DNA from: Olivibacter jilunii
GTDB taxonomy: Bacteria; Bacteroidota; Bacteroidia; Sphingobacteriales; Sphingobacteriaceae
Assembly (NCBI RefSeq): GCF_900607235.1
Contig: NZ_LR027861.1
Span: 1-64,000, forward strand
Reading direction: 5' to 3'
DNA: 64,000 nt
Shown: positions 38,608 to 61,194 of the stretch, one piece after another
Layout: the number at the start of each line of letters is the position of its first letter
Position numbering within the stretch: position 1 is the first letter of the stretch
Made by a program: the position numbers and the translations under genes
Notes under the pieces: model-generated
The model's input: the letters and a program-made list of their open reading frames with translations, nothing else
What the model was told of the DNA's origin: nothing
Databases searched by the model: none

Positions 38608-38618
38608 GAATAAAATCG

Positions 38619-41159: not shown

Positions 41160-41160
41160 A

Positions 41161-42660: not shown

Positions 42661-42678
42661 ATTATTTCTATTTTTACA

Positions 42679-45600: not shown

Positions 45601-45780
45601 AACGGCGGAACCTTGTACAAGAACCGATACCCCGGGAATCGGTTGGCCATCGCTTTGCGCGATGATTTTGCCACTCACTTGTATGTTTTGCTGCGCATGC
45701 ATCTCGGAGACGAGCATACACAGTGCAAAAAGAAAGCAAGTGAAGTTCTTTAGTTTAAATTGATCATTAAACATCTTCAT
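42679..45780 (-). CDS. SusC/RagA TonB-linked outer-membrane importer of the PUL
   Basis: 1033 residues; signal peptide ending SEMHAQ (about 29); carboxypeptidase-like regulatory domain about 33-110; TonB box region DEVVVVGYGTTT near 113-124; plug about 125-240 (NINVSIRGKGTPLIVVDGVVFP, IEILKDASAAIYG); then the barrel ending in a terminal Phe (ISLGLRASF). First gene of the operon SusC-SusD-GH5-GH2. The divergently placed HTCS (259 bases away) probably activates it when it binds the inducing oligosaccharide. Confidence 0.95.
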   Translation of the reverse strand: MKMFNDQFKLKNFTCFLFALCMLVSEMHAQQNIQVSGKIIAQSDGQPIPGVSVLVQGSAVGTSTDAEGRYSLSVPSNASLLIKAVGYQEQRIKVTGNVINLTLVEEENALDEVVVVGYGTTTKENLTTSVSKIDPKKIPTAANSSVPELLFGRAAGLQVNQQSSQPGGNINVSIRGKGTPLIVVDGVVFPNNALEPDNGSVEIQGVDRGPLAGLNPNDIESIEILKDASAAIYGVSAANGVMYITTKKGKAGRMNISYDANHSFVNNMKYLEPLNARDYMVYHNQLSVDKYLSDNNMEPFGQGTPDLRAYSPRFTQEQINGAGEGTRWLDQVLRNGNVDNHQLSLNGGTEKVTYYTSANYYKQTGTVKNSDLTRWSGRLNVTFALSKWLSLNTNVNANRNEYANPQAGWQTGGAGTQGFNALQAALGYPSTVPIYDADGNYSIFAVTGNPVSLLTIKNQTKFNGLTINTSLDFTLIPNELTAKVLYGNNDENSLRNFFIPSNVFWGQLYRSRASLAETRRQNQTMEATVSYRKRLNEWLAIDAVTGVGQYLEDFSGFNVEAFDMPDVINTDNLATATGIPTIGSYRGKNKLRSFFIRSNVELTDRFVLSLSLRRDGADKFFPDKKYQNFPSASLAYKFSNEPFIKKIEAISLLKLRTSYGTAGERPGSVAYGAYGPDATAIAFENGSVRYIPYRVNAFTNPNLQWPITKTFNAGFDFGLFRDRINGSFDYFIENKTRLLTNATTPQLSIISTSPVNGGHQRRTGFDFSLNTVNLSSDNFTWNSVVNLTHYQNRWVERFANEPPPPYAGVTDPVGSNIIYVYPTAGILQIGQEVPAWQPQNAQKPGSPIFVDSNGDGALNFDDVVSYSGIPKLIVGFGNNFTYKNFDLGIFLYGQFGAWGYDYTTLWGDPVNLLGNQQGGTTRIKDAWSTSNPSGTQPGAAFNEAALGLDPGVDTRLAKRDFLRCRNITLGYTFRTGAISKLMNSLRVYADVQNAFIITGFDGVDPEVQAVSIKGGPAPYPMARTISLGLRASF

Positions 45781-45911
45781 AGCATGTTTTAATTGGTTAA
45801 AATCTTTGTTTGGTTAGTCACATCGCTGCAAATGAAGGGTATTCGACGATTTCTTTTTGTTTCAATCGTACATACTTTTGGTTCGAACATGCATAATAGC
45901 ATGATACAATT

Positions 45912-45942
45912 TGTGCGTCGGCTCCTTTAAGCCGACCGCACA
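45912..45942. promoter_or_regulatory. GC-rich hairpin between the PUL SusC and its HTCS
   Basis: TGTGCGTCGGCT (45912-45923), loop CCTTTA, AGCCGACCGCACA (45930-45942): 12 paired bases with one bulged base. It stands out in A+T-rich DNA 97 bases before the HTCS start and 132 before the SusC start; it may be an operator or an attenuator-like leader structure. Confidence 0.45.
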
Positions 45943-46038
45943 TTTATTGATGCAAGTCACAGTAAGAAAAGTGTGATACGCTATAGCCAATACCGAAATT
46001 ATTTCCTTAGATTCGTAATAATAACCAGCACCTAATCA

Positions 46039-49000
46039 ATGCAGACTGTTCAATTATATCAACGGATTTCGTGGTACGTCCTCTTTATACTATTCTTCTA
46101 CTGCATGATTGGTAATCCCTATTACCTAAAGGCTAAAGACGGCCTCCACTTTCAACACATTAATCACTTCCAAGGACTTTCCAATAATACCGTTGAATGT
46201 ATATTTCAGGACACTAGGGGCTTCATGTGGTTCGGCACTCGAGATGGGCTCAATCGCTATGATGGATATGAAGTGATTTCTTATCGCAACATACCCAACA
46301 ACCCGCATTCGCTTAGTGACAATTACATTACTTGCATCTATGAAGATAAAACCGGTGGCTTATGGATAGGGACTTTAAACGGTTTGAACTATTACGACCG
46401 CGCAAAGAATCAATTTAAACGTTTTAAAAGTAGTGACAATAGAGAGTATGCTATTAGTTGCAATCGCATTAGCGCCATAACGGAAGTAGGCGGTGCCTTA
46501 TGGATTGGCACATTTGGAGGAGGATTGAATCGTTTGGACAAGCGGACTGGACATTTTATTACATACCGCCAAGTAGCACATAAAGCAAGTCTTGTTGACG
46601 ACTTTATCCGTTGTTTTTACGTCGATCAAAAGCAACGTCTGTGGATCGGAACGCAGCGGGGGCTCAGCTTATTGGAGCCAAAAAAAGGCATTTTCTGTCA
46701 GATCCCGCACGATAAAGGGCTGGATATTTTAGCCATCGTGGAAGATGCTAACCATCAAATCTTACTGGGTACCAATAACGAAGGAGTTTATTCATTTAAT
46801 ACACAGCTTCTTCGCTACGAAGAGCGCCGATATCACGAGGGCATCAACGGTGGCATCACCAGCGACCTGATCCGGGCCTTACTGCTAGATCAACAGCGTC
46901 GACTTTGGGTTGGCAGTATTAACGGTGGACTAAGTCAATATAACCCTCAAACGGAAGAGTGGAGCCATTATACTGCCGAGCCGGATAATCCCAACAGCCT
47001 TTCGCAGCGCACAATCTCAGCTCTTTTTGAAGACCGTCAAGGAAACCTTTGGATCGGCACCCATCGAGGCGGGGTTAACTTATACAGTCCGCATGCTAAG
47101 AAATTTGAACTTTTCAGAAGAACCGCCCATAGGGAAAGTCTTGGCTATAACGACGTCACCGCCTTTTGCGAAGATAGTAAAGGGCGTATTTGGGTTGGAA
47201 CGGACGGAGGCGGCCTCGACTTATTCAATCCTAAAACGAAGAAGTTTACCCATTATCGTCATGATCCGAAAAATTCACAAAGTCTAGCTTCTAACGCGGT
47301 CCTTCATATCATGGAAGACCGCAATGGACGATTATGGGTAAGTACTTGGGGTGGCGGAATTCATCTTTTTAATCCTGAAAAGGGTACTTTCAAACGTTAC
47401 CTGCACGACGAAAATAACAGGGCTTCCATCACTTCCAATTTTGTGCATGAAATTTTCGAAGATGCTCGAGGACAATTTTGGGTGGCTACCTATTACGGTG
47501 GACTTAACCGCTTTGATCCGGAGAAAGGTACATTTTCGCGCTTCACGTATGGAAACAATCTACAGAACGTATTCAAAGGCAACAATGTCGTGGCCATTGA
47601 AGAAGATAAGCATGGCCAATTATGGTTTGGAACGGATGATGGCGGCTTAAATTGCTATCAGCCTGAATCAGGAAGAATTATACATTACCTGGATAACTGG
47701 GAAAAGAATCCTTATGTACGCATTATCCATGAAGATCGTAAAGGCCGACTGTGGTTAGGACTCGATAAACTGTATCTTTTTGACGAAAATAAAAAACAAT
47801 TCCTACCCAATCCTGCATCTTCTGACTTATCGCAAGGATACATTAAGGGCATACTCGAAGACGAACAAGGCAATTTATGGCTGTCAACCACCAATGGACT
47901 AGTAAAATATCACCCGGAAAACCAAAATTACAGACGGTACAATATGAACGATGGTTTGCAGGATTTAGAGTTTGAGGCAGGAGCTTACTTAAAAACCCGC
48001 GAGGGTTCATTTCTATTTGGCGGTATTAATGGCTTCAATCGATTTGTTCCGGATAAATTGGCAGAAAATAGGGTAAAACCTCCGCTGTATTTTACTTCAT
48101 TCGAACTATTTAATAAGAAAGTAGAGGTAGGCGAAAAAGGATCACCCCTGCCTGTCGATATCAGTGTTGTTGACCTTATTTCGTTAAGGCATCAACAATC
48201 CAGTTTTTCAGTTACGTTTTCTGCTCTTAATTATATAGCTTCTGCCAACAATCAGTATGCGTACAAATTAGAAGGTTTTGACAGCGATTGGATTCGTACG
48301 AATGATCGCAAAGCGGTTTATACGAATCTCAATCCGGGGAAATATATACTTCGCGTCAAAGCATCTAACAATGATGGTGTATGGAACGAAAACGAGAAAA
48401 AGTTATTCATCGAAATAAAACCACCCTTTTGGGCCACCTGGTGGTTCCGAGCTTGCGGCTTGGCGTTTTTAGCTGTGCTCCTCTTTCAGTATATTAGGAT
48501 AACTCGAGAAAAACATAGGCAACGGTTGGAAGACCAAAAGAAGGAAGAATTGCACCAGTTGCAGTTGCAGTTTTTCACCAATATATCCCATGAGTTTCGC
48601 ACGCCCCTTTCTTTAATTCTGGGACCGATTGAAAATCTATTGCATGAGGAAAAAAGTGCCGGAAAAAAACTGCAGGTTTATCAGCTTATTCATCGCAACG
48701 CTAAACGATTGATGGGTTTAATTAATGAATTGATGGATTTCCGTCAAGTAGAAACCGGTGGGTTTAAATTGAATGTACGAGCGGGTGATATGAGTGAGCA
48801 CGTACGCCGGATAGCCGAAGATTTCACTCTTATCGCCAAACAAAACCAAATCACCTTCACGGTACAGCTGCCAGATGACGATGATTTAACATGGTTTGAC
48901 CCAACCATGCTGGATAAAATTATGCTTAACATTCTCAATAATGCCTTCAAATACACGCGTACAGAAGGCAACATTCACGTTAAGTTATTGAAAAGTATAA

Positions 49001-50172
49001 ATGAGCATCATCCGGCCTATCCGCATCAATTACGTATCCCACCCATTTATCCTGCTAAAGCGTATCGATATTTTGTGGTGAAAGATAACGGTATAGGCAT
49101 TTCCGAAAGTTCACTGCAGCATCTATTTAAACGATATTATCGCATCGCCGATTACCATATTGGCTCAGGTGTAGGATTAGCCTTTGTTAAGAGTTTGACC
49201 TTGCTACATAAAGGTTATATCGAAGTTAGCAGTGAAACCGACCAAGGAGTTGAATTTATGGTTGCAATTCCATGTGATCGGGAAGATTATCAAGAACATG
49301 AAATTAATCATCAAGCGGCTGCATCCTCAACTGATATAGTTATTCAAACGACGTCTGCCGTACAAAACAAGAAAAAGAGTAAACGCCCTATACGAACTGC
49401 TGAGGAAAAGGCCCCGCATATTTTACTGGTGGAAGACCATGATGAATTACGTTCCTTTATCAAAGATCAATTAGGTTCCAGCTATCAGATTTGGGAGGCT
49501 ACCAATGGCATAGAAGCTCTCGACTTTTTGCAGGAACGTTTGCCGGATCTGATCATAAGCGATGTGATGATGCCAAAAATGAATGGGGTTCAGTTATGTA
49601 AACGACTTAAATCGAATCCGGAAACACAATCAATTCCTTTCCTCATACTTACTGCCAAACAAGACGAGGATGCTCACCTTGCCGGCGTAGAAGCCGGGGC
49701 TGACTACTACTTTTCGAAACCTTTGAATATGGCTTTTTTACAGCAAACCATCCGTAATATTTTTATGCAGCGTGCAAGTATCAAAAGACGCTTGGCAAAA
49801 AACAGCCAGCTCGTTGCGCTCGAAAAGGCACATAGACAAAAAGACCGCGCTTTTACACAGAAAATTGTAAAAATTATTGAAAACAATTTATCCAATCCCG
49901 CGCTGGATATTATCTTTCTTTGTAAAGAAACCGGCATGAGTCGCACCAAACTTTATCAGGAAATTAAAATGATTCACAATCAATCGATAGGTGATTTTAT
50001 TCGTTCTATACGAATGAAGCAGGCTGCTCACTTGATGGTGTACGATAATCTACCGATTGCAGAAGTTATGTTCCGGGTCGGAATACAAACTCAATCCTAT
50101 TTTACCAAAGCTTTCAAAAACGAGTTTGGTAAAACGCCTACGCAATATTTAAAAGATTTAGAAAAGAAGTAA
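46039..50172 (+). CDS. Hybrid two-component system sensor/regulator (HTCS)
   Basis: 1377 residues. A signal/membrane segment at about 12-30 leads to a periplasmic region of two beta-propellers built of Reg_prop repeats (WIGT...GLNRYDG-type blades, about 40-690), a Y_Y_Y domain (about 715-785), a membrane helix (about 795-815), HisKA with H851 in ISHEFRTPLS, HATPase_c (NNAFKYT, DNGIGI, GSGVGLAF), a receiver with phospho-acceptor D1175 in ISDVMMPKMNG, and a C-terminal AraC HTH domain (about 1285-1375). HTCS proteins sense oligosaccharides in the periplasm and activate the cognate PUL. Here the neighbour is SusC-SusD-GH5-GH2. Confidence 0.95.
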   Translation: MQTVQLYQRISWYVLFILFFYCMIGNPYYLKAKDGLHFQHINHFQGLSNNTVECIFQDTRGFMWFGTRDGLNRYDGYEVISYRNIPNNPHSLSDNYITCIYEDKTGGLWIGTLNGLNYYDRAKNQFKRFKSSDNREYAISCNRISAITEVGGALWIGTFGGGLNRLDKRTGHFITYRQVAHKASLVDDFIRCFYVDQKQRLWIGTQRGLSLLEPKKGIFCQIPHDKGLDILAIVEDANHQILLGTNNEGVYSFNTQLLRYEERRYHEGINGGITSDLIRALLLDQQRRLWVGSINGGLSQYNPQTEEWSHYTAEPDNPNSLSQRTISALFEDRQGNLWIGTHRGGVNLYSPHAKKFELFRRTAHRESLGYNDVTAFCEDSKGRIWVGTDGGGLDLFNPKTKKFTHYRHDPKNSQSLASNAVLHIMEDRNGRLWVSTWGGGIHLFNPEKGTFKRYLHDENNRASITSNFVHEIFEDARGQFWVATYYGGLNRFDPEKGTFSRFTYGNNLQNVFKGNNVVAIEEDKHGQLWFGTDDGGLNCYQPESGRIIHYLDNWEKNPYVRIIHEDRKGRLWLGLDKLYLFDENKKQFLPNPASSDLSQGYIKGILEDEQGNLWLSTTNGLVKYHPENQNYRRYNMNDGLQDLEFEAGAYLKTREGSFLFGGINGFNRFVPDKLAENRVKPPLYFTSFELFNKKVEVGEKGSPLPVDISVVDLISLRHQQSSFSVTFSALNYIASANNQYAYKLEGFDSDWIRTNDRKAVYTNLNPGKYILRVKASNNDGVWNENEKKLFIEIKPPFWATWWFRACGLAFLAVLLFQYIRITREKHRQRLEDQKKEELHQLQLQFFTNISHEFRTPLSLILGPIENLLHEEKSAGKKLQVYQLIHRNAKRLMGLINELMDFRQVETGGFKLNVRAGDMSEHVRRIAEDFTLIAKQNQITFTVQLPDDDDLTWFDPTMLDKIMLNILNNAFKYTRTEGNIHVKLLKSINEHHPAYPHQLRIPPIYPAKAYRYFVVKDNGIGISESSLQHLFKRYYRIADYHIGSGVGLAFVKSLTLLHKGYIEVSSETDQGVEFMVAIPCDREDYQEHEINHQAAASSTDIVIQTTSAVQNKKKSKRPIRTAEEKAPHILLVEDHDELRSFIKDQLGSSYQIWEATNGIEALDFLQERLPDLIISDVMMPKMNGVQLCKRLKSNPETQSIPFLILTAKQDEDAHLAGVEAGADYYFSKPLNMAFLQQTIRNIFMQRASIKRRLAKNSQLVALEKAHRQKDRAFTQKIVKIIENNLSNPALDIIFLCKETGMSRTKLYQEIKMIHNQSIGDFIRSIRMKQAAHLMVYDNLPIAEVMFRVGIQTQSYFTKAFKNEFGKTPTQYLKDLEKK

Positions 50173-51123: not shown

Positions 51124-52362
51124 ATGCACTGTATGAGGGTCCATCTTTTAGTATCAATCCTTTTGATGCCATTTTTTGCCTTTGCTCAAACGAAAACATC
51201 TGACGATCTCTTCACCGAAGCAAGGAATGCAGCTTTCGAGCAAAAAAATTATGAGAAGGCTAAACAATTGGCAAAAAGGGCGTTAGCTCAATCGCCCGAT
51301 TATACGGATGTTGCCATTTTCTTAGGTCGGGTATATACTTGGACCGATCAACCGGACAGCGCAAGAAACGTATTTGAAAACATCCTTTTGCGAGGCGTAA
51401 CATCGGAAGATCTTTTTTTGGCTTACGCCTCGCTTGAGTACTGGAACGATAATAATCATAAAGCGCTAAACCTAGTTAATCAAGGTTTAACCATAAACGC
51501 TTCTTCTGAAGATTTGTTATTACTAAAATCCCGTATATTATATGCTGAAACAAATTATCGAGAGGCCGAGCAAGTGATTGGTAATCTATTGAATATCAAC
51601 AACCAAAATACTGAAGCCCGAGCATTGGCGGCACGGATTTCAGACAACAGTGCATTAAATGCGATAGGTATTGTCTATAATTTTGTCCATTTTAATAAAC
51701 AATTTGATGATCCCTGGCATTTGGCCGGTATCAGCTATAAAAGACAAACGAAATTCGGATCGGTTATAGCCAAACTGAATTATGCAAACCGTTTCAAAAC
51801 CAATGGTTTTCAATATGAACTAGAAGCTTATCCCAGAATTTCAAAAATGTTCTACATGTATCTAAATGCGGGATACTCGGGCGATGTCGGAGTATTTCCC
51901 AAATATCGTACGGGCGCCTCACTTTACGCCAATTTACCGAAAAGCTTTGAGGCCGAGATTGGTTATAGACAACTTTATTTTACTGACGCCACTTGGATGT
52001 ATACCGCATCGGTAGGAAAATATTTTAGAAACTTTTGGTTTAATTTTCGTACCTATCTTACTCCTGATAATGAAGACATATCGCAATCTTATACATTCAC
52101 CACCCGTTATTATATCGGGGGAGCGAACGACTATTTCGGTGCCGCTATCGGCACGGGTATATCACCGGACGATAAAAATACAAACGTCCTTTTGGAGGAA
52201 GCCTATAAACTACGTACCAACAAAATAATGCTTGAATACAATTTCTCAGTGAAAAACCTCCATATATTTAATGTGAACGCAAGCTTTTTCAGGCAAGAAT
52301 ACCAGCCTACCATCAAAGGGAACCAGCTAGATATCGGTATCTCCTATCAAAAGCGGTTTTAA
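51124..52362 (+). CDS. YaiO-type outer-membrane beta-barrel with TPR repeats
   Basis: 412 residues, signal peptide ending FAFAQ (about 22). Residues about 26-175 hold TPR-like repeats (FEQKNYEKAKQLAKRALAQSPDYTDVAIFLGRVY, AETNYREAEQVIGNLLNINNQNTEARALAA). Residues about 185-412 are a beta-barrel rich in Tyr and Phe ending in a terminal Phe (IGISYQKRF), matching the YaiO family. In E. coli yaiO sits beside the GT2 gene yaiP, and TPR-barrel proteins export polymers in other systems, so a role in surface polysaccharide export is a reasonable inference. It converges on the GT2 fusion, and the two stops share TTAA at 52359-52362. Confidence 0.88.
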   Translation: MHCMRVHLLVSILLMPFFAFAQTKTSDDLFTEARNAAFEQKNYEKAKQLAKRALAQSPDYTDVAIFLGRVYTWTDQPDSARNVFENILLRGVTSEDLFLAYASLEYWNDNNHKALNLVNQGLTINASSEDLLLLKSRILYAETNYREAEQVIGNLLNINNQNTEARALAARISDNSALNAIGIVYNFVHFNKQFDDPWHLAGISYKRQTKFGSVIAKLNYANRFKTNGFQYELEAYPRISKMFYMYLNAGYSGDVGVFPKYRTGASLYANLPKSFEAEIGYRQLYFTDATWMYTASVGKYFRNFWFNFRTYLTPDNEDISQSYTFTTRYYIGGANDYFGAAIGTGISPDDKNTNVLLEEAYKLRTNKIMLEYNFSVKNLHIFNVNASFFRQEYQPTIKGNQLDIGISYQKRF

Positions 52363-55300
52363 TGATTTGGAAGTGGGCCGCTAATGAAACGCAATAGTGA
52401 ATCTGGAAGCAACGAGTTGTTCTTTATGAATCGATCGTTTTTCTCTTTATATCGATGAAAGGCCGCACGCAATTCATCCCGAATACGACTGTCCTGAACA
52501 ACTTCCTCATCCAGCCCCTCCGTAAACATGTATAAAGACTCTTCGTTTAGATGATATTTACCCATAACAAAATCGATTAATTGTGATTTCGTCTGCATTA
52601 GTGGCAAGCTCTGTTCACTTACCATAGTTGACAAGGTATCCAAACCGTTCCCTAACCAGGTAACATTTTCGGGAATCTGTATGGAATATTGCTTATTTAG
52701 AAAACGGAGTAGTGAAGGCGTTATATCTAAATGACTAACAATGTTGGTCAGTTTTGCAGTGCGTTTCAACAGCGGCGAATATATAATTAACGGAACATGA
52801 TAACGATCTATTTTTGTACGCATAGGTATCTCGGGCATTCTGTGATCGCCGGTGATAATAAAAATAGTTTGATTGTAATCGTTCCTTTGTCGATAGGCCA
52901 TAAAAAACGATCTTAATGCATCGTCTGCATTCAACACACTTGTGAGTTGTAAAGCATATCGCCTTAATTCAATACGCTGTTGCGGATTAGAGGTAATATC
53001 AGCAAGTCGTTCGTCGAATCGTTTTGCAAAAAAATCCGGGTTATTGATAAGAAAAGGATTATGTGTTGAAACGGATAGAAGCACGCTTACTTGTGGTTGC
53101 TTATCATTCTCATTCCGGCTTTTTAAAAAATGGTTAAATAGCGATTGATCATCATATCCCCAGCTGAAATCATTTGAAGCAGGTAATTTTTTATAGCTAG
53201 GCGGAAACGTTTTCCCATCATTCAATTCGGATAAATCATTTTTCTTCAAAAAGATGTCCATATGATCAAACGAGGCATCCCCTCCATAATAAAATGAGCT
53301 GTGGTATCCATTTTTCTGTAGTACGTTCAACAATGAATAATGTAAGGGCATTTGTTCGCCCAGCTCCAAAAAGCCATGTTCTCCAAATGGTAACGATGCC
53401 AATACCGATGGTAGAGCGGCAAAAGTTCTCCCACCTGCGCTTAGGCAATTTTCCCAGTAAAGCCCCTGTTTAGCAAGGGAATCCAAGAATGGCGTAAAGT
53501 TGCCTAAATAAGCCCCCTCGTTAACGAATGCCCGACCAAATCCTTCCATTAAAAGAATAATAATATTAGGTTTTTTCTCGCTTTTGCGAAAAAAGGGACT
53601 TAGTACATCTTCCGTTTCGTCTACTCTTAAGAAAGGGTAGTTCAGTGGATCTAAATAGTAGTATTCCTTAACGGAAACTTCCATATCTCCTACCGATGTC
53701 TGTTCATTATTAAATTGTAAAAGGCCACCAGGAAAATAATTTAGGTAGCTTTGTCTATAAAAATAGTTCGATTTATTGGTTACGAGGCTCTTTTCAAAAT
53801 CGCTAGTCGACCAATGGTCTCTAAATAATTTATCCGAATTGACTAAAAACGACCCTATTCCCGCGACAAAAAAGAAACCGATAAATGCCATAGACCACAT
53901 CTTTCTCAACTTTATCCAACTAAAACATGCAATACCGACAAAGATGACAATAAGTAGCTTTAGAACATTGACAACATTGATTGCGCCGGATGAACCGATT
54001 GTTTGTTTAATTTCAGACGATGAGTAACTATAAATATCAGCACCTAATGGAACAAGCGATACAAGAAAATATTGAACAAGAATAGTTTGTACTAAAAGGA
54101 TAAGTACAAAAATGCCGGCCGTTACAATTAAGGCCCATTTCGAGGAGATAAAACGAAGGATGTAAAAAACTATAAAACCAAAGAAGCTTGCCGAAAGCCA
54201 AAATAAAAATTGATTGAAAAGCATTTGCGCAAAAAGTACACCACCATTTGATAATGGACCAAATTGCTGTGTATAAACGATAAATTCAATGAAGCTAGCG
54301 ATCAATAACAGCCCTAAAAAAACAATAGATAAATTAATATAAGGGGATACCAGCATGTTAAAACGTTGGGATGACGTTTCAGCTGCTGATGAGTGTTGAG
54401 ACGCCTGCTTGGCATTAAAACCCCGTCGCGTCATATCTCCCCAGGCTTTTTTCTTGAGTAAATAATCACGGAGTCCCCGGACTGCAGATAATACCACAAA
54501 AGGATGGAACAAGAAAGGTTCTAGAATAGCTGTTAACACTAATTTTACGACATCGGTATTCCTTCTATAAACACGATAGGTTACAGTATCAACCAAGATG
54601 GCGTAAATAGAGTAGAGAACGCCGAACACCATGACGAAACCGAGCAAAATAAAGAAAGCGGGCCAATCAACTAATCCCAGTATGAGGAAAACAAAAAAAC
54701 CTATAAACCCTATAAATTCTATTATCGGCCCTAAAAATTCAAATAAAAACCAATATGGATAACTAATTAAACCCGTAATGCCATATTTCGGATTAAAAAA
54801 TAATTTCTTATGTTTCCATAAGGTCTCAATTGTGCCACGCATCCATCTATTACGTTGACGACTAAGAATCTTAAAACTATCCGGTGCTTCCGTCCAGCAT
54901 AAAGGGTCAGGTATATTAACAACACGGTACGCTTCATTCTGTTCTTCCATATAGCGCCTCATTCGGACAACCAACTCCATATCTTCTCCAACTGTGCCAT
55001 GATCATAGCCACCTGCCTTGAGTATGATTTCTTTATCGAATGCCCCGAATGCACCCGATATTAGCAACAAGCCATTTGCACGACTCCAGGCAAGTCTTCC
55101 CAGCAAAAAAGCCCGAATATACTCCAATGCTTGGGAACGAGCTAACCAACTTTTTGGCAGCTTTACTTCAACAAGCTTACCATTTTCTATCCTACAATCG
55201 TTAGCCAATCGGATAATACCACCACAAGCAATTGTCCGTTTATCTGTTTCTTCCATGAAAGGTTTCGCCAGCTTCAAGATAGCATCCTGCTCTAAGATGC

Positions 55301-55823
55301 AATCTACATCTATACATACTGCATAGTCGTTACTTGCGATATTTATCCCCACATTTAAAGCATCTGCTTTTCCACCATTCTCTTTATCAACGACTAATAG
55401 CTTCTTAAATGCGGGATTCTTACTTTTGTACACTCCCTTAACTTCCTTCGTTGGCAATACATAATCGACGTAAAAATCTGCCTTAAAAAGTTCATACGCA
55501 TCAATCAATTTTTGCAAAGAGTTATCTTTGCTTCCATCATTGATAATAATAATTTCCAGGTTGACATAATGAATGGAAAGAAGGGAACGTACATTTTCTA
55601 CAATAGTGGCTGATTCATTGTACGCCGGAGCCAATAAACTAAAGCTTGGAGCGTTAGTAGAAGTAGCTAAGAGACGATAGTCCGTAAAGCTATTTTTACG
55701 CATATGCTTTATAATCGCACCCAATGAAAAAAGCCCTATCCATAAATACACTAAACATAATAATATGGCATAAAGTAGGATTCCAAACGTAAAGAATTCA
55801 TAAAAAAACAACTGCCAGTTCAT
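52359..55823 (-). CDS. Fusion of a processive GT2 glycosyltransferase and an LtaS-like phosphotransferase
   Basis: 1154 residues. Part 1: one membrane helix (about 8-35), a GT2 domain (about 58-330) with LAPAYNESAT, D172-V-D174, acceptor-site GEDMELV and the processivity motif Q323-R-N-R326-W327, then further helices (about 355-455), as in PgaC, hyaluronan and cellulose synthases. Part 2: five membrane helices (about 495-520, 530-555, 562-592, 617-637, 642-660) and an extracytoplasmic sulfatase-superfamily domain (about 750-1100) with E760 in LLMEGFG, nucleophile T800 in GGRTFAALPS, and D993-H994 in TGDH: the LtaS layout. It could polymerise a glycan and decorate it with phosphoglycerol or a similar group. 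The start overlaps the HEAT gene stop (TAATG). Confidence 0.9.
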   Translation of the reverse strand: MNWQLFFYEFFTFGILLYAILLCLVYLWIGLFSLGAIIKHMRKNSFTDYRLLATSTNAPSFSLLAPAYNESATIVENVRSLLSIHYVNLEIIIINDGSKDNSLQKLIDAYELFKADFYVDYVLPTKEVKGVYKSKNPAFKKLLVVDKENGGKADALNVGINIASNDYAVCIDVDCILEQDAILKLAKPFMEETDKRTIACGGIIRLANDCRIENGKLVEVKLPKSWLARSQALEYIRAFLLGRLAWSRANGLLLISGAFGAFDKEIILKAGGYDHGTVGEDMELVVRMRRYMEEQNEAYRVVNIPDPLCWTEAPDSFKILSRQRNRWMRGTIETLWKHKKLFFNPKYGITGLISYPYWFLFEFLGPIIEFIGFIGFFVFLILGLVDWPAFFILLGFVMVFGVLYSIYAILVDTVTYRVYRRNTDVVKLVLTAILEPFLFHPFVVLSAVRGLRDYLLKKKAWGDMTRRGFNAKQASQHSSAAETSSQRFNMLVSPYINLSIVFLGLLLIASFIEFIVYTQQFGPLSNGGVLFAQMLFNQFLFWLSASFFGFIVFYILRFISSKWALIVTAGIFVLILLVQTILVQYFLVSLVPLGADIYSYSSSEIKQTIGSSGAINVVNVLKLLIVIFVGIACFSWIKLRKMWSMAFIGFFFVAGIGSFLVNSDKLFRDHWSTSDFEKSLVTNKSNYFYRQSYLNYFPGGLLQFNNEQTSVGDMEVSVKEYYYLDPLNYPFLRVDETEDVLSPFFRKSEKKPNIIILLMEGFGRAFVNEGAYLGNFTPFLDSLAKQGLYWENCLSAGGRTFAALPSVLASLPFGEHGFLELGEQMPLHYSLLNVLQKNGYHSSFYYGGDASFDHMDIFLKKNDLSELNDGKTFPPSYKKLPASNDFSWGYDDQSLFNHFLKSRNENDKQPQVSVLLSVSTHNPFLINNPDFFAKRFDERLADITSNPQQRIELRRYALQLTSVLNADDALRSFFMAYRQRNDYNQTIFIITGDHRMPEIPMRTKIDRYHVPLIIYSPLLKRTAKLTNIVSHLDITPSLLRFLNKQYSIQIPENVTWLGNGLDTLSTMVSEQSLPLMQTKSQLIDFVMGKYHLNEESLYMFTEGLDEEVVQDSRIRDELRAAFHRYKEKNDRFIKNNSLLPDSLLRFISGPLPNH

Positions 55824-56899
55824 TAATAATGTCCTTCCATAGCTTGGTTAATAATTGTTTTAGCTGGTTCATCGAGTTGCTTCTTGGTCTCTTCCAGGAC
55901 AGCAACTCCTTTTGCGGAACAGTTTAAAATAGCTCGGGCTGCACCTAATCTAACTTTACTGTTGTCATTATTATAGAATTCATGTAATAAAAAATTTAGT
56001 TCATTTATGCCTGCAATATTCTCTAAGACACGAATAGCCCGCATTTTGTATGCGTCAGATGCGTTATCATAAACCTCAATGACAGCAGCCGCTGTATTTT
56101 CTTGAGAAATACGTTCTAGCGTTTTCAGCGACTGCATTTGTACTTTTATTGAAGATGCCGAAATTTTTAATAAGACGCTTTCATGGAGTTCAAGTAATTG
56201 AAATTTTGCAATAAGCTTCAATGCAAATATAACAACGCTCTGATTATCCGAATTTAACCAACACTGAACATGATGTGCTGCATTAAGTGGTAATTGCCCG
56301 ATCGCACTTAGCAGCTTAAGCTGCTGCCAATCTGAAATTGGATTTTGCAAATCATCTAAGAAAGCCAACCCTTGGAACCCCTTCAACCTAACTAAGCCGT
56401 ACTGTGCTTCTAATCTAATAATGTCCTTATAATGATTTACCAAACTTACAATTTCGGGTTCCGCTTCCGAGATTTGCATGGCACTTAATTCTTGTATAGC
56501 GGAAGCCACAATATGCGCATGCCTGCTGGACAACCTTGCTGTACTGTCTTTGTCTAACCTCAGTTGTTTATAAACTACCTTTAAATTGGACGCTGCAATA
56601 CCTGAAAGACTTTTTTCCGCATTCACTAAACTTCTTGCTAAGTATTTTCTAAATCTTCGATTAGTTAAATGGTCATTTAGCGCCGAGGGTGGCTGCAATG
56701 GAATATCAGCGGATGCTGCCTCATATATTACGATGGCTATTAGCTGTTGCCAAGATTTCCTTAAATCTGCAGCACGGTTTTTTTCAATCAAAAAAAACAA
56801 AATGACAATAAAAACCAGGAAGAGAAGACTTACCATCACGAGAGTTGCCCAAAAGAAATCAATAATGGGTAAGCCAAGAAGTGTTTCGTTCAACTGCAT
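55823..56899 (-). CDS. Membrane-anchored HEAT-repeat protein
   Basis: 358 residues. One N-terminal membrane helix (about 14-39, FFWATLVMVSLLFLVFIVILFF) and then a cytosolic helical region with HEAT-like repeats (about 130-350): NHYKDIIRLEAQYGLVRLKG, NSDNQSVVIFALKLIAKFQ, SSIKVQMQSLKTLERIS, ASDAYKMRAIRVLENI, NDNSKVRLGAARAILNC. HEAT solenoids are protein-protein scaffolds; no catalytic site is seen. It sits between the receiver gene (19-base gap) and the GT2 fusion (TAATG overlap), so it may carry the receiver's signal to the membrane synthase. Confidence 0.87.
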   Translation of the reverse strand: MQLNETLLGLPIIDFFWATLVMVSLLFLVFIVILFFLIEKNRAADLRKSWQQLIAIVIYEAASADIPLQPPSALNDHLTNRRFRKYLARSLVNAEKSLSGIAASNLKVVYKQLRLDKDSTARLSSRHAHIVASAIQELSAMQISEAEPEIVSLVNHYKDIIRLEAQYGLVRLKGFQGLAFLDDLQNPISDWQQLKLLSAIGQLPLNAAHHVQCWLNSDNQSVVIFALKLIAKFQLLELHESVLLKISASSIKVQMQSLKTLERISQENTAAAVIEVYDNASDAYKMRAIRVLENIAGINELNFLLHEFYNNDNSKVRLGAARAILNCSAKGVAVLEETKKQLDEPAKTIINQAMEGHY

Positions 56900-56918: not shown

Positions 56919-57281
56919 TTAGCGTCCAACGGTAAAACGTTTAATACGAAGAATAAGCTCTCCTGGACTAAACGGTTTGACAATAAAATCATCAGCACCC
57001 AACTTAAAAGCGTCCAAAACAACTTCTTCTTGGCCTAATCCCGAAAGAATAATAATGGGTATCGCTTTTTCTTTTATGGCGCGAACGGCAGTCACTATTT
57101 CTAAACCCGAAACATAAGGCATCATAATATCCGTGATAACCAGATCGGGGAGTGTTTCCTTTATTTTCTCAAGGGCATCCTTTCCATCGATGGCAGAAAT
57201 TATTTGATGGTTTTCCTTTGACAGCCTGAATTCAAGAGTTTTCCGTATTAACTCGTCATCTTCTGCAATTAAAATAATCAT
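56919..57281 (-). CDS. Stand-alone response-regulator receiver domain
   Basis: 120 residues, a single CheY-like domain without an output domain. Acidic pocket ED-D (residues 7-9, IAEDDELIRK), phospho-acceptor D51 in ITDIMMPYVSG, switch Ser in ILSG near 80, and Lys of VKPFSP near 103. It starts 7 bases after the hybrid kinase stop, making the kinase its likely phosphate source, and precedes the HEAT gene, its likely partner. Lack of a DNA-binding domain implies control by protein contact. Confidence 0.95.
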   Translation of the reverse strand: MIILIAEDDELIRKTLEFRLSKENHQIISAIDGKDALEKIKETLPDLVITDIMMPYVSGLEIVTAVRAIKEKAIPIIILSGLGQEEVVLDAFKLGADDFIVKPFSPGELILRIKRFTVGR

Positions 57282-57288
57282 TCAGCTA

Positions 57289-60200
57289 CTAGTTAAAAGG
57301 TGTAATTCCAATTATTTTCTTTACTATTTTTATTTCTTCAAAAATCTTGCGCAACAAGTCTTGCCGAGTAATTTCTACTATACTGTCAGCCCTTTCAAGT
57401 TCCTCGGCAAGTTCATTCAGAAGAAGCAAACCGGCCGTTCTTGAGGTTCCTAGCAATTTATGCCCTATCTTTTTTAAAGACTGAAGATCTTGTTCTTCTT
57501 GAGCTTGTTCTATTTTCTTGACGGTACCTTCTAACTCAGATATGGTCAATTTTATGAATTCCCTTTTAAACATTTCATCGCCAGCGGCGTAGTCGTCCAT
57601 CATATGATAATCGACGTGTAAATCGACCGTTATCTCATCTGTTTTTTCCTTAAAAAGCCAGGTCTTGATCTTTAACTCAATATCTGCTTCCACAATAGGT
57701 TTTGCGATAAAATCATTAAACCCGGCATCTAAGCATTTCTCCATCTCCCCTTTCACATTGCCGGCAGTAAGTGCTATTATGATAACATCAACGCCGGAGG
57801 GCAAAGACCGAATGCTACGTGTTGCTTCTATTCCATTAAGTTCGGGCATTTGAATGTCCATAAAAATAAGGTCTGGCATTTTGACTTTGCAGGCCTCTAC
57901 CGCAAGCAAACCATTTTCAGCTTTTTCAATTGACGCAAGTGGGGCAATGCGTTCGATAATTGTGCTCGTTAACAACATATTAACCGCATTATCTTCGGCA
58001 ATAAGCACATTAAAAGGACGAACGACAGCTTTAGATGGCAACCGATCGCTTTCTTCACCATTTACGACATCAATCTTTTGCGTTCGCTTAAGAGCCTCGT
58101 ACATCTCTTTCGTATTAATCGGTTTCCTTACCCGTGTTACCATTAATTCATTTGATTGTTTAACAATATCTTCGTCTTCAGATGAACTGTATAGCAAAAT
58201 AATTGGAATGTTGGAATATTCCGCTTTTGGGCTCTGTCGTATTTTTCTAATTACCTCTAAGCCATCTAAAATCGGCATCTGGTAGTCTACAATCAGTAAA
58301 TCATATTTTTTATTGTCGTATAATTTTTGCAGGGCATCGAAGCCATTACTAACAGATTCAGAATGAATATTTTTCAACGCCAACATCCGTTCCAGTATCA
58401 TCCTATTATGATCATTATCATCTACGATCAAAACAGATTGCAAGTCGTTTAAATCACCATTTCCTGCAGGATCTCCAAGCTCAAACGACGTTTCTAAGTT
58501 AAAAAAGAACGTGCTTCCAATCCCGACCTCGCTTTCCAGCTGCAGATGACTGCCCATTAACGCTAACAATTTATTGGAAATAGTAAGACCTAAACCTGTT
58601 CCCCCATATTTCTTAGTAATAGTACTATCTTCTTGGGCAAAAGCCTCAAAAATTTCATGTTGTTTGTCTCGTTGAATACCGATACCCGTATCTGTTACGG
58701 AAAACCGCAAAGTAGTTTTGTTATCTGAGGCGCTTATTTGTACTTCTTCTATTTTCAGTTCTATTTCTCCTATTTCTGTAAATTTGACGGCATTACCCAG
58801 TAAATTAATAAGTATTTGTTTTAATCGTGCATCGTCCGCCCAGATAAAACGCGGAAGATGAGGAGACATATCGAGAATTAATTCCAATCCTTTCTTTTGA
58901 GCTTGGTAGGTGATAACGTTTATTACCTGTTCACTCAAGTCAAATAAGTCTATTCTTTCAGAATTCAGCTCCAGTTTACCCGCTTCGATTTTAGAAAAAT
59001 CAAGGATATCATTAATAATCGCTAAAAGCGAAACTGCAGAATCATTAACGATCGTGAGATACTGTTTCTGCGTATCATTTAATGAAGTTTTTAATATCAG
59101 ATCAGTAAAGCCAATCACACCGTTGAGAGGCGTTCTTATTTCGTGGCTCATGTTAGCAAGAAATTCAGATTTAGCTTTGCTGGCTTGTTCCGCTATTTTT
59201 TTTGCCTTCCGCAATTCCTCGCTCTTTTCAAAACTTTCTGTTATATCCTGCGTAAACATAACCAGTCCCCCCACTTCATTATTAAAGTGACGCCAAGGTC
59301 TGATTTCCCAAATAAGGTGTTGTTCGTGGTCCCATCCCGGTGGCGTCCAGACATCGTCATTTTTTTTATGCACCTCGCCATTCAGACATTTTTTATGAAT
59401 TTCTTTCCAATCGTCAGGAAGATTCGGAAAAACATCGTAATGTGATTTGCCAATAATACTCACATCTGCTAAATGATAACTTTCATACCATCGTTTGCTG
59501 ACGGCAATATATCTTAAATCTTTGTCTAACATTGCTACAGCCGCCGGCGCATGCTCAATGAACGTTCGAAGCCTGGCCCTTTCCTCTATTAATGCAACTT
59601 CTGCCCGCTTCTTTTGATCTATATCTTGGAAAGTACCGAAAATCCGTTTGCATACACCTTCTATCATTTCGGGTTGTCCGTGGCTTCTGACCCAAATCAA
59701 TCGTTTCTTTGCGGTGCGTAACTGTAATTCTAAGTCATAAGGTATGCCTTTCGTCACGGCTTCTTGAAATGCTTCTTCTATATACGCACGATTCTCGTCT
59801 TCATAAAAGGCCAATGCCTGTTCAATGGTCGGTTCATAATCGACTGCGACTTCATGAATACTTTTTGTAACATCCGACCATATAATTCTATTATTCGTTA
59901 AATCTACCTCCCAGCCGCCAACCCGCGCGACGCGGTTGGTCTGCTCCAACATTTCTTTCGTCTTCTTGAGATCACCCTCCAACTTCAAACGCTCAGTCAT
60001 GTCAATCGCATTTCCAATAATGTAATCGTTACCTTCTGCGTCTTGTTCTAACACATTATTATAGAGCCAAAACAAGGGCTGTCCGTCTTTATGAAGCGTT
60101 TTCATAAGCCCTGTATCTTTGCGATTTAATTTGATACGATTCAAATATCCTTTCAGAAATTCGTGATGATAGGGTGGAACTAAATCGAATAAGGACATTC

Positions 60201-61194
60201 CTAGAATTTCTTCCTTTTTATATCCTAGTATGGCAGCACCTGCTTGATTGACCGACAAAATATTGCCCGCTAAGTCGTGTGTACACATCAGGCCCTGAGA
60301 ATTCTCAAAAAAAGAACGAAGTTTATTTTCGCTTATCTCTAGCTCTTGATTCTTTAGCGTTTCTTCCGTCATATCACGACCAACGACGAAAATCTCATTT
60401 TCTCCGATATTAGGAGTTACAGACCATTGGATCGTTCGATTAGATCCGTCTTTTGCCAATAAACGATTAGTAAAATGAATGGTGTTCTTTCCGGATCGCC
60501 TATCCGAAAGTTCGTCCTCTGTCTTCCTGATATCATCCGGATAAACAAACGTTAAAAGTTTCTTTCCGAGCAACTCGCTTTCTCGCCAACCTAAAAGGTC
60601 TTGGAAAGCGGGATTCACCATTTTTATGATGCCTTCGGAGGTGACCGAGCTGATCAAATCTTTTGATATGTCAAACAATTTAGAAAAGTACTTTGCTTCT
60701 TGGGTATTCTTTCTCTCAAGTATTAAAGTAACCACCTGCTTAGCCAAAAGCTCAAGAAGTCTTTTCTGCTTTTCGTTTAATTCTTTCGGCTTTTTATCGA
60801 TAACACATAATGCTCCCAATGCATATCCGCGAGGATCAATTAACGGGTAACCTGCGTAAAAAGCGATATTTGGATCTCCTGTAACGAGTGGGTTATGAAC
60901 AAATCGGCTATCTTTTGCTGTATCGTTTACTTGGAAAACGCTGTCATTTAAAATGGTATACTGGCAAAAGGAAATATCACGGCTCATTTCAACCGTATCG
61001 ATACCTTTCTTCGATTTAAACCACTGTCTGTTTTCGTCAATAAGTGATATAAGCGAAATTGGGGTGTCGCAAATCAAACTAGCCGCTTCAGTAATGCTAT
61101 CAAAGTCTTCCTCTTCAAGTGAATCAAGTATATCATAATTTCTCAGCGCCTGCACGCGCTCTTTCTCGTTTTCAGGAATTGGAAAACTTATCAT
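57289..61194 (-). CDS. Soluble hybrid histidine kinase: GAF-PAS4-HisKA-HATPase-REC-REC-Hpt
   Basis: 1301 residues with no membrane segment. Domains: GAF about 20-155, four PAS/PAC units about 165-285, 290-410, 425-535 and 545-660, HisKA with H684 (MSHEIRTPLNG), HATPase_c about 785-905 (N box NAVKFT, DTGIGI, GTGLGL), receiver 1 with D970 (IVDYQMP), receiver 2 with D1113 (FMDIQMP), and an Hpt domain with H1245 (IGHKLLGTSR). The whole phosphorelay His-Asp-His is in one chain; the final Asp may be D51 of the receiver encoded 7 bases downstream. The signal is cytosolic (GAF/PAS ligand or redox) but unknown. First gene of the four-gene synthase operon; a 14-bp palindrome lies upstream. Confidence 0.94.
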   Translation of the reverse strand: MISFPIPENEKERVQALRNYDILDSLEEEDFDSITEAASLICDTPISLISLIDENRQWFKSKKGIDTVEMSRDISFCQYTILNDSVFQVNDTAKDSRFVHNPLVTGDPNIAFYAGYPLIDPRGYALGALCVIDKKPKELNEKQKRLLELLAKQVVTLILERKNTQEAKYFSKLFDISKDLISSVTSEGIIKMVNPAFQDLLGWRESELLGKKLLTFVYPDDIRKTEDELSDRRSGKNTIHFTNRLLAKDGSNRTIQWSVTPNIGENEIFVVGRDMTEETLKNQELEISENKLRSFFENSQGLMCTHDLAGNILSVNQAGAAILGYKKEEILGMSLFDLVPPYHHEFLKGYLNRIKLNRKDTGLMKTLHKDGQPLFWLYNNVLEQDAEGNDYIIGNAIDMTERLKLEGDLKKTKEMLEQTNRVARVGGWEVDLTNNRIIWSDVTKSIHEVAVDYEPTIEQALAFYEDENRAYIEEAFQEAVTKGIPYDLELQLRTAKKRLIWVRSHGQPEMIEGVCKRIFGTFQDIDQKKRAEVALIEERARLRTFIEHAPAAVAMLDKDLRYIAVSKRWYESYHLADVSIIGKSHYDVFPNLPDDWKEIHKKCLNGEVHKKNDDVWTPPGWDHEQHLIWEIRPWRHFNNEVGGLVMFTQDITESFEKSEELRKAKKIAEQASKAKSEFLANMSHEIRTPLNGVIGFTDLILKTSLNDTQKQYLTIVNDSAVSLLAIINDILDFSKIEAGKLELNSERIDLFDLSEQVINVITYQAQKKGLELILDMSPHLPRFIWADDARLKQILINLLGNAVKFTEIGEIELKIEEVQISASDNKTTLRFSVTDTGIGIQRDKQHEIFEAFAQEDSTITKKYGGTGLGLTISNKLLALMGSHLQLESEVGIGSTFFFNLETSFELGDPAGNGDLNDLQSVLIVDDNDHNRMILERMLALKNIHSESVSNGFDALQKLYDNKKYDLLIVDYQMPILDGLEVIRKIRQSPKAEYSNIPIILLYSSSEDEDIVKQSNELMVTRVRKPINTKEMYEALKRTQKIDVVNGEESDRLPSKAVVRPFNVLIAEDNAVNMLLTSTIIERIAPLASIEKAENGLLAVEACKVKMPDLIFMDIQMPELNGIEATRSIRSLPSGVDVIIIALTAGNVKGEMEKCLDAGFNDFIAKPIVEADIELKIKTWLFKEKTDEITVDLHVDYHMMDDYAAGDEMFKREFIKLTISELEGTVKKIEQAQEEQDLQSLKKIGHKLLGTSRTAGLLLLNELAEELERADSIVEITRQDLLRKIFEEIKIVKKIIGITPFN

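Follow-up and report, generated by a model that had tools for sequence, protein, structure and literature searches.

What does a single protein make when it joins a glycan synthase to a phosphotransferase related to the enzymes that build lipoteichoic acid (LTA), in a phylum, the Bacteroidota, that to our knowledge is not known for teichoic acids? The question is raised by one gene (52359-55823, minus strand) in a 64,000-nucleotide stretch of the Olivibacter jilunii genome (contig NZ_LR027861.1, positions 1 to 64,000; hereafter the window), which encodes a glycosyltransferase family 2 (GT2) half followed by an LtaS-like half. A preliminary description of the window had proposed that the protein could both polymerise a glycan and attach phosphoglycerol or similar groups. 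We find that the fusion is real, widespread in the samples examined, conserved and, as far as the open-access literature shows, uncharacterised. We consider it probable that it forms the core of a phosphorelay-controlled machine for a secreted polysaccharide, with the LtaS-like half decorating the emerging glycan.

Two active sites in one reading frame

The gene runs from ATG to stop as 1154 amino acids with no internal stop codon, and can be divided as follows.

52359-55823, minus strand: GT2::LtaS-like bifunctional protein, 1154 amino acids (single open reading frame (ORF); Pfam; AlphaFold2)
54408-55823, minus strand: GT2 synthase half, residues 1-472 (Pfam, alignment A2, AlphaFold2, loop charges)
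54387-54407, minus strand: linker, residues 473-479 (AlphaFold2; the separate genes of relatives end and begin in this region)
53841-54386, minus strand: five predicted transmembrane helices of the LtaS-like half, residues 480-661 (alignment, AlphaFold2, loop charges)
52389-53576, minus strand: sulfatase-fold phosphotransferase domain, residues 750-1145 (E760, T800, H921, D993, H994), predicted to be periplasmic (Pfam, VIA-align)

Pfam recognises both halves in this one intact frame, as first described, with a GT2 match (PF13641) at residues 59-330 (69 bits against a cut-off of 27) and a Sulfatase match (PF00884) at residues 752-1042 (123.5 bits against 25). Each of the motif residues named at the outset is in place. 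D172, D174, G279-E280-D281 and Q323-R-N-R326-W327 give the complete motif set of processive GT2 enzymes (D, DxD, ED and QxxRW), and the second half has the catalytic Thr (T800) and the E/D/H metal ligands (E760, D993, H994) of LtaS/LtaP/OpgB-type transferases. Both sites are kept in fused and separate forms of the protein, as judged from alignment A2 (70 rows; column counts set gaps aside): D172 and D174 are found in 53/53 rows, E280, D281 and W327 in 54/54, and G279, Q323 and R326 in 53/54, while E760 and D993 are kept in 52/53 rows and H994 in 53/53. The nucleophile column at T800 holds Thr in 50 rows, Ser in 2 and Ala in 1 of 53, and never Cys.

This last column bears on the idea that the LtaS-like half is a hydrolase, either phosphodiesterase or sulfatase, by which the polymer is trimmed or released. 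The superfamily is common to sulfatases and phosphodiesterases, many sulfatases are among the fold matches, and the arylsulfatase model PRK13759 scores 29.6 bits on the fusion protein. Type I sulfatases, however, use Cys or Ser in a CxPxR motif, a nucleophile choice at odds with the predominance of Thr and the absence of Cys here, and the architecture with five transmembrane helices is that of the transferases. A hydrolase is, in our judgement, quite unlikely.

Predicted structure and topology

An AlphaFold2 model of the fusion protein, made with the 70-row alignment, has a mean predicted local distance difference test score (pLDDT) of 89.4 and a predicted template-modelling score of 0.67. The GT2 half is modelled as one N-terminal transmembrane helix, a GT-A domain and the QxxRW helix, followed by three membrane or interfacial helices, of which we take two as transmembrane. 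In VIA-align comparisons, residues 10-474 resemble the Chlorella virus hyaluronan synthase 8snc (Z 27.9, root-mean-square deviation (rmsd) 3.4, 395 aligned residues) and residues 7-459 resemble PcManGT (Z 29.1, rmsd 3.2, 340 aligned); hyaluronan synthases match at Z of about 25-28, and the predicted model has the GT-A fold with flanking transmembrane helices that these synthases have. After a low-confidence linker (residues 473-477, pLDDT <50), five helices (480-521, 527-559, 561-589, 617-637 and 645-660) precede the sulfatase domain, bearing out the five-helix LtaS arrangement that had been proposed. The top folds for the C-terminal half, by both Foldseek and VIA-align, are VP1736, LtaP and LtaS (residues 695-1144; 3lxq Z 36.7, 4uop Z 34.4 and 4uor Z 33.8, respectively).

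Loop charges were counted as Lys plus Arg between hydrophobic cores, with 20 residues taken at each end of long loops. They alternate along the chain: 0 for loop 1-19, 5 for 39-362, 0 for 382-391, 4 for 411-427, 7 for 447-497, 0 for 517-537, 2 for 557-564, 1 for 584-616 and 3 for 636-642; loop 662-739 has 4, together with 10 acidic residues. This alternation fits a model in which the GT2 domain and the linker would be cytosolic and the phosphotransferase periplasmic, so that the sulfatase-fold domain behind the five helices is predicted to be extracytoplasmic. The fit requires that the hydrophobic helix at about 428-446, which has positive loops on either side and is probably interfacial, does not cross the membrane.

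A relative of OpgB and VP1736 rather than an LTA synthase

The fusion protein misses the curated NCBIfam cut-offs for PgaC/IcaA, LtaS and OpgB alike. Its scores are 122.4 bits on the XrtG-associated glycosyltransferase model (cut-off 363.95), 111.6 on PgaC (422.3), 37 on phosphoglycerol transferase I (OpgB, NF009027; 572) and 24.9 on LTA synthase (970); the matches include phosphoglycerol transferases and LTA synthase, and no phosphoethanolamine transferase. Clade hidden Markov models (HMMs) built from cassette sequences (the GT2 model without five divergent glycosyltransferase rows) were run against Escherichia coli K-12 proteins as yardsticks, with filters off and E up to 10. The GT2 model found PgaC (102.6 bits), YaiP (34.1) and BcsA (23.5), and the LtaS model found OpgB (44.5 bits) and gave no match to EptA or BcsG at E<=10.

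The nearest sequence relatives of the C-terminal half in the PDB are VP1736 and Bacillus subtilis LtaS. The segment FHGNTQTFWNR of the latter (2w8d), which we take, from Staphylococcus aureus LtaS, to be a pocket for glycerophosphate binding, aligns with YYGGDASFDHM in the window protein; VP1736 has YGGEANFDNM, and the two therefore have in common the pattern YGG[DE]xxFDxM. A tree of 33 of the 78 operon LtaS rows with 15 other LtaS-like proteins from Bacteroidota places the operon sequences in a single clade (support 100), separate from the others. Because of the profile scores and the VP1736-like motif in place of the LtaS pocket motif, we place the C-terminal half by sequence with OpgB and VP1736 rather than with the glycerophosphate polymerases. 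Among head-group transferases, it appears to resemble those for glycerophosphate (OpgB, VP1736, LtaP) more than EptA and BcsG.

By these family tests the C-terminal half is not an LTA synthase. The wording 'full LtaS-like' in the preliminary description was thus too strong: what it said of polymerising a glycan and attaching phosphoglycerol or similar groups agrees with the architecture, motifs and fold, but strict LtaS identity does not survive a score of 24.9 bits against 970 and a replaced pocket motif. The same data bear on whether this half might polymerise glycerol phosphate, adding a teichoic-acid-like polymer to the glycan made by the GT2 half. The LtaS fold (Z of about 33-34) and the retained catalytic Thr and metal ligands would allow it, but the LTA synthase score, the exchange of FHGNTQTFWNR for a VP1736-like YGGDxxFDxM and the lack of a confident PgsA in the genome (see below) make such a polymerase very improbable.

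Fused and separate forms in relatives

We then asked how widespread the fusion is. Contigs were scanned for the best 80 of 582 relatives by score, a choice biased towards the fused query; the resulting tables count ORFs rather than annotated genes, and some stretches stop at contig ends. The same domain order, for which the preliminary description had suggested a search in other Bacteroidota, is found fused in 41 of these 80 loci (36-52% identity over the best segment; one copy, L127, is shortened by a contig end and another, L148, ends early), in another 32 the GT2 and the LtaS-like protein are encoded by two genes, adjacent for the most part, and 7 have a GT2 without LtaS nearby. That so many homologues are fused in one frame rules out a chance fusion or a sequencing or assembly artefact. 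Fused, adjacent and lone versions are all present among 41 genomes (the window's own and 40 relatives).

In larger samples, a row was called fused when it spanned >=1130 query residues without a stop, the window's own genome being included. In the family sample, 128/399 genomes have a match at E<=1e-70 and at least 50/399 are fused, with at least 10 further full-length rows that have one stop each; in the phylum sample, the figures are 94/395 at E<=1e-60 and at least 11/395. Fused forms occur in Sphingobacterium, Chryseobacterium, Kaistella, Empedobacter, Myroides, Hydrotalea, Sediminibacterium, Ferruginibacter and Flavobacterium, among others. Within the genus of the window the gene is patchy: three of four other genomes have no match at 1e-70, and in the fourth (G004) the GT2 copies come without LtaS.

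A split reading frame in related strains had been named as the finding that would count against a fused enzyme. Splits of this kind exist, yet the two genes are then intact neighbours in a single operon, and this speaks for a shared function rather than against it. The two genes lie between -23 and +30 bases apart in 30/32 separate pairs of the 80-locus set and in 31/34 of a 90-locus set; in one relative (G223/L078), the final portion of the GT2 part holds a stop that may be a lesion. A quickly built tree of 90 GT2 domains, which has several long branches and omits L039 as a duplicate of L102 (it is kept in the 90-locus context counts below), requires 8 changes of the fused label (44 rows), of which starred branches force at least 5, and the window gene lies in a starred set of 26 rows, every one fused. 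The changes may be fusions or fissions. Among close pairs, LtaS lies in the GT2 frame in 21/31, with one or more stops between (the first stop is TAA in 17 and TAG in 4), an excess with a nominal p of 9e-5 against one third. Gain or loss of stop codons explains these same-frame pairs. We considered programmed stop read-through and set it aside: most of the pairs come from related Flavobacteriaceae, the gap sometimes contains extra stops, and inspection by eye showed no common context.

Other long GT2 frames were noted in passing. Among relatives' GT2 frames of 1100+ amino acids, the one scanned with Pfam (L051) is a glycoside hydrolase (GH) family 18, polysaccharide deacetylase and GT2 protein, a different architecture. 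A second GT2 of the family lies inside a 1463-amino-acid open frame (G328:C1:4553833-4555404) and is possibly fused to something else.

A conserved cassette around the synthase

The genes on either side of the fusion, on which the preliminary description was silent, hold most of the functional information.

55823-56899, minus strand: HEAT-repeat protein with an N-terminal hydrophobic helix, 358 amino acids (Pfam HEAT_2; 1-base overlap with the GT2 gene)
56919-57281, minus strand: single-domain response regulator, 120 amino acids (Pfam Response_reg)
57289-61194, minus strand: hybrid histidine kinase, 1301 amino acids (GAF, PAS, HisKA, HATPase, two receivers, one Hpt)
51124-52362, plus strand: tetratricopeptide repeat (TPR) protein with a YaiO outer-membrane beta-barrel, 412 amino acids (Pfam YaiO, 243.8 bits)

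The order is hybrid kinase, response regulator, HEAT protein and GT2::LtaS, separated by 7, 19 and -1 bases; the YaiO gene is convergent with the fusion gene, tail to tail, with a 4-base overlap. The window YaiO protein is the single match to PF19413 in the whole genome. In 90 neighbourhoods (the 80 best loci and 10 further ones, some on short contigs), an ORF of the HEAT family lies directly before the GT2 gene in 89 loci (88 by direct match to the window HEAT protein), a receiver-domain family member lies near it in 82, and YaiO is <=7 ORFs away in 75. By gene order and profile matches, these genes make up a conserved cassette of a hybrid kinase (in the window), a single-domain response regulator, a membrane HEAT protein, a GT2 with or without LtaS, and a YaiO barrel.

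Some of these parts are also joined within one protein. At 20 loci the C-terminal end of an LtaS-like protein resembles the window TPR/YaiO protein over a stretch, and in two of the fused forms (L134 and L152) such a stretch lies inside the GT2::LtaS protein, a classical sign of physical partnership. By Pfam, the one separate LtaS form scanned (L136) has TPR at bare threshold, and a Flavobacterium-type fusion (L090) has none. In E. coli K-12, yaiO stands in a run with yaiP, annotated as a putative glucosyltransferase, and the broken acyltransferase gene yaiX, a further hint that YaiO accompanies decorated glycans; the cassette YaiO HMM barely matches E. coli YaiO itself (E 6.5), so that this yardstick failed.

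These associations bear on whether there is an exported polymer at all. The GT2 half might instead make a short glycolipid or modify an envelope glycan, which the LtaS half would then decorate. QxxRW is no proof of processivity, and OpgB acts on periplasmic oligosaccharides; against this, the TPR/YaiO barrel is paired with the synthase in 75/90 loci and the fold is hyaluronan-synthase-like. We regard a system without export as unlikely.

For a secreted polysaccharide, the motifs, fold and gene order suggest the following sequence of steps. At the cytosolic face, the GT2 half would extend the chain with sugars taken from a nucleotide sugar and push it through the inner membrane. The LtaS-like half, held beside the chain exit by its five helices, would use T800 and its metal site (E760, D993, H994) to move the phospho-alcohol head group of a membrane phospholipid onto the emerging chain; the chain would then reach the cell surface by way of the TPRs in the periplasm and the YaiO barrel. 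Synthesis would be switched by a phosphorelay from the hybrid kinase through Hpt and the single-domain response regulator to the HEAT protein, acting as an adaptor on the synthase.

The LtaS module is not part of every such cassette. Plasmid pMESCI01 of Mesorhizobium ciceri carries a response regulator, YaiO, HEAT, GT2 and Hpt, a Haloarcula halophila plasmid carries a response regulator, HEAT and GT2, and Bacteroides finegoldii has HEAT, GT2, TPR/YaiO and DUF4838. These have the same core genes as the window (GT2 39-41% identical), but, unlike the window, no LtaS-like protein is annotated in the 13-kb stretches, and no YaiO in that of Haloarcula. An Emticicia plasmid has a response regulator, a HEAT-like protein, GT2, YaiO and a separate LtaS. 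LtaS-less cassettes outside Bacteroidota make response regulator, HEAT, GT2 and YaiO the general kind and LtaS an added module, which was found in cassettes of Bacteroidota only, among the records examined. The Mesorhizobium and Haloarcula plasmids also suggest a general phosphorelay-HEAT control of GT2 synthases.

Several further genes lie beside the cassettes. HEAT proteins of marine Flavobacteriaceae reach 694-1187 amino acids (for example L136:6958-9978 and L142:6397-9960), and their long extensions outside HEAT_2 lack a Pfam match above the cut-off in the two scanned (L136 and L138). DUF4838 proteins stand beside LtaS-less GT2-YaiO cassettes (L045:13868-16132, L046:3784-5994 and L197:10294-12447) and also in the LtaS-bearing stretches L105, L152 and, weakly, L112. 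Glycerophosphodiester phosphodiesterase (GDPD)-like genes lie by the cassette in 8/90 loci (by phmmer, two checked with Pfam; for example L042:11770-12651 and L143:15230-16546); 7 of the 8 come from one marine Flavobacteriaceae clade, making about two independent cases, and we do not count them as a sign of phosphoglycerol. A membrane-anchored family of about 390 amino acids lies near YaiO in 19/90 loci (for example L105:13480-14634), all with LtaS (19/78 LtaS loci against 0/12 LtaS-less loci, Fisher p 0.06). It has no Pfam match over the cut-off in four members scanned, no NCBIfam match in one, and no match in the window genome by a search that had no positive control; its AlphaFold2 model (pLDDT 76.9) has weak fold matches (ThuA/GATase-like, GH42).

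Elsewhere in the window, 36172-50172 is an apparent polysaccharide utilisation locus with SusC-like, SusD-like and GH2 proteins, a hybrid two-component regulator and an 846-amino-acid protein without a Pfam match. The window also has two GH92 proteins and a sulfatase.

Donor lipid and control

Which head group would be transferred? From sequence likeness we lean modestly towards phosphoglycerol over phosphoethanolamine. The same machine might instead transfer phosphoethanolamine from phosphatidylethanolamine, the main Bacteroidota phospholipid, as in phosphoethanolamine cellulose. In its favour, a PssA-like protein in the genome falls just short of its cut-off (105.8 bits against 107) whereas PgsA has no match above its own, the pocket motif of LtaS has been exchanged, and the phosphoethanolamine transferase MCR-1 is among the Foldseek matches, a sign that the wider fold is common to both; but the clade HMM matches OpgB and not EptA or BcsG, and the NCBIfam matches hold phosphoglycerol transferases and LTA synthase and no phosphoethanolamine transferase. 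On balance, transfer of phosphoethanolamine seems rather doubtful to us, though a contender. Our preferred secreted-polysaccharide machine can also be stated in its most specific form: a single polytopic enzyme that makes a phosphoglycerol-substituted, teichoic-acid-like anionic secreted polysaccharide in Bacteroidota, polymerising on one side of the membrane and decorating on the other, and switched by a phosphorylated response regulator that docks through a HEAT adaptor. Taken whole, this form is possible and we offer it tentatively.

Control by cyclic di-GMP (c-di-GMP), as in Bcs-like systems, finds no counterpart here: GGDEF has no match in the window genome (8/14 control genomes were positive), and PilZ is not among the Pfam matches of the fusion protein. 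Because no GGDEF match was found, c-di-GMP control is unlikely, and the kinase, response regulator and HEAT protein are the natural candidates for this role.

Several points weigh against the machine as we propose it. No activity is known for any member, and the Pfam matches of the operon proteins include no feature that identifies the sugar. No PgsA in the genome passes its cut-off (the best, a 197-amino-acid CDP-alcohol phosphatidyltransferase at about 46-47 bits, scores 46.2 against 109.1), which makes the supply of phosphatidylglycerol doubtful. For the decorating half, the LtaS pocket motif is replaced, T800 is other than Thr in 3/53 rows of A2, and MCR-1 appears at Foldseek rank 34; YejM/PbgA, for which we know of no head-group transferase role, shares the fold and aligns over the transmembrane part too (Z 29.9, rmsd 16.7). 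LtaS is missing from the available stretch at 12/90 GT2 rows and 7/80 loci, so this half is optional, and the parity of the topology breaks if the helix at 422-455 crosses the membrane.

Implications

We found no study of the fusion or of the cassette in open-access full texts, among the matches listed, most subscription papers being outside that scope; 'not characterised', as the protein had been called, therefore holds within this literature and reaches no further. If our reading is correct, it would add a class of exopolysaccharide systems that is widespread, phospho-decorated and uncharacterised. It would also supply, in covalent form and in nature, the pairing of synthase and decorator that phosphoethanolamine cellulose exemplifies, and would point to a glycan synthase under phosphorelay-HEAT control in a genome without detectable GGDEF proteins. 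Should the most specific form of the reading also prove right, docking of the response regulator through the HEAT adaptor would be a post-translational way to control exopolysaccharide synthesis, as an alternative to c-di-GMP. We are only moderately surprised, because GT2 synthases with a sulfatase-fold phosphotransferase held at them are already known; what raises the surprise is the fusion, the fact that it recurs, and its phosphorelay-HEAT setting. The question can be tested directly, since both activities lie in one gene, each can be removed by a point change, and phosphorus in the polymer can be measured.

Comparison with known systems

PgaC/IcaA, which make poly-N-acetylglucosamine (PNAG), and the hyaluronan synthases have the GT2 fold and motifs in common with the window protein, and PgaC is the top E. 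coli yardstick. The window protein, however, reaches only 111.6 of the 422.3 bits required for PgaC, and the operon has no deacetylase among its Pfam matches (no search was aimed at PgaD). LtaS and LtaP have the five transmembrane helices, sulfatase-fold domain, catalytic Thr and metal ligands of the C-terminal half, but the window protein is far under the LtaS cut-off, its pocket motif is replaced and its host is Gram-negative. The best sequence and fold relatives of this half are OpgB and VP1736, the latter with the same YGG[DE]xxFDxM motif and listed in its PDB entry as an uncharacterised protein; unlike them, the window domain is joined to a GT2, and it scores 37 bits against 572 on the phosphoglycerol transferase I model.

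As a working model, the phosphoethanolamine-cellulose system of E. coli comes closest (PMC11470070). BcsA-BcsG-BcsC and the window system both have a GT2 synthase with a membrane-bound, sulfatase-fold phosphotransferase kept at it, and both have periplasmic TPRs and an outer-membrane barrel. They differ in that the window has a covalent fusion where E. coli recruits a trimer, a phosphotransferase that is not BcsG-like by profile, YaiO in place of BcsC, and a HEAT protein and response regulator, with no PilZ match and no GGDEF in the genome. By analogy, the window system would work like the phosphoethanolamine-cellulose machinery while being no member of it.

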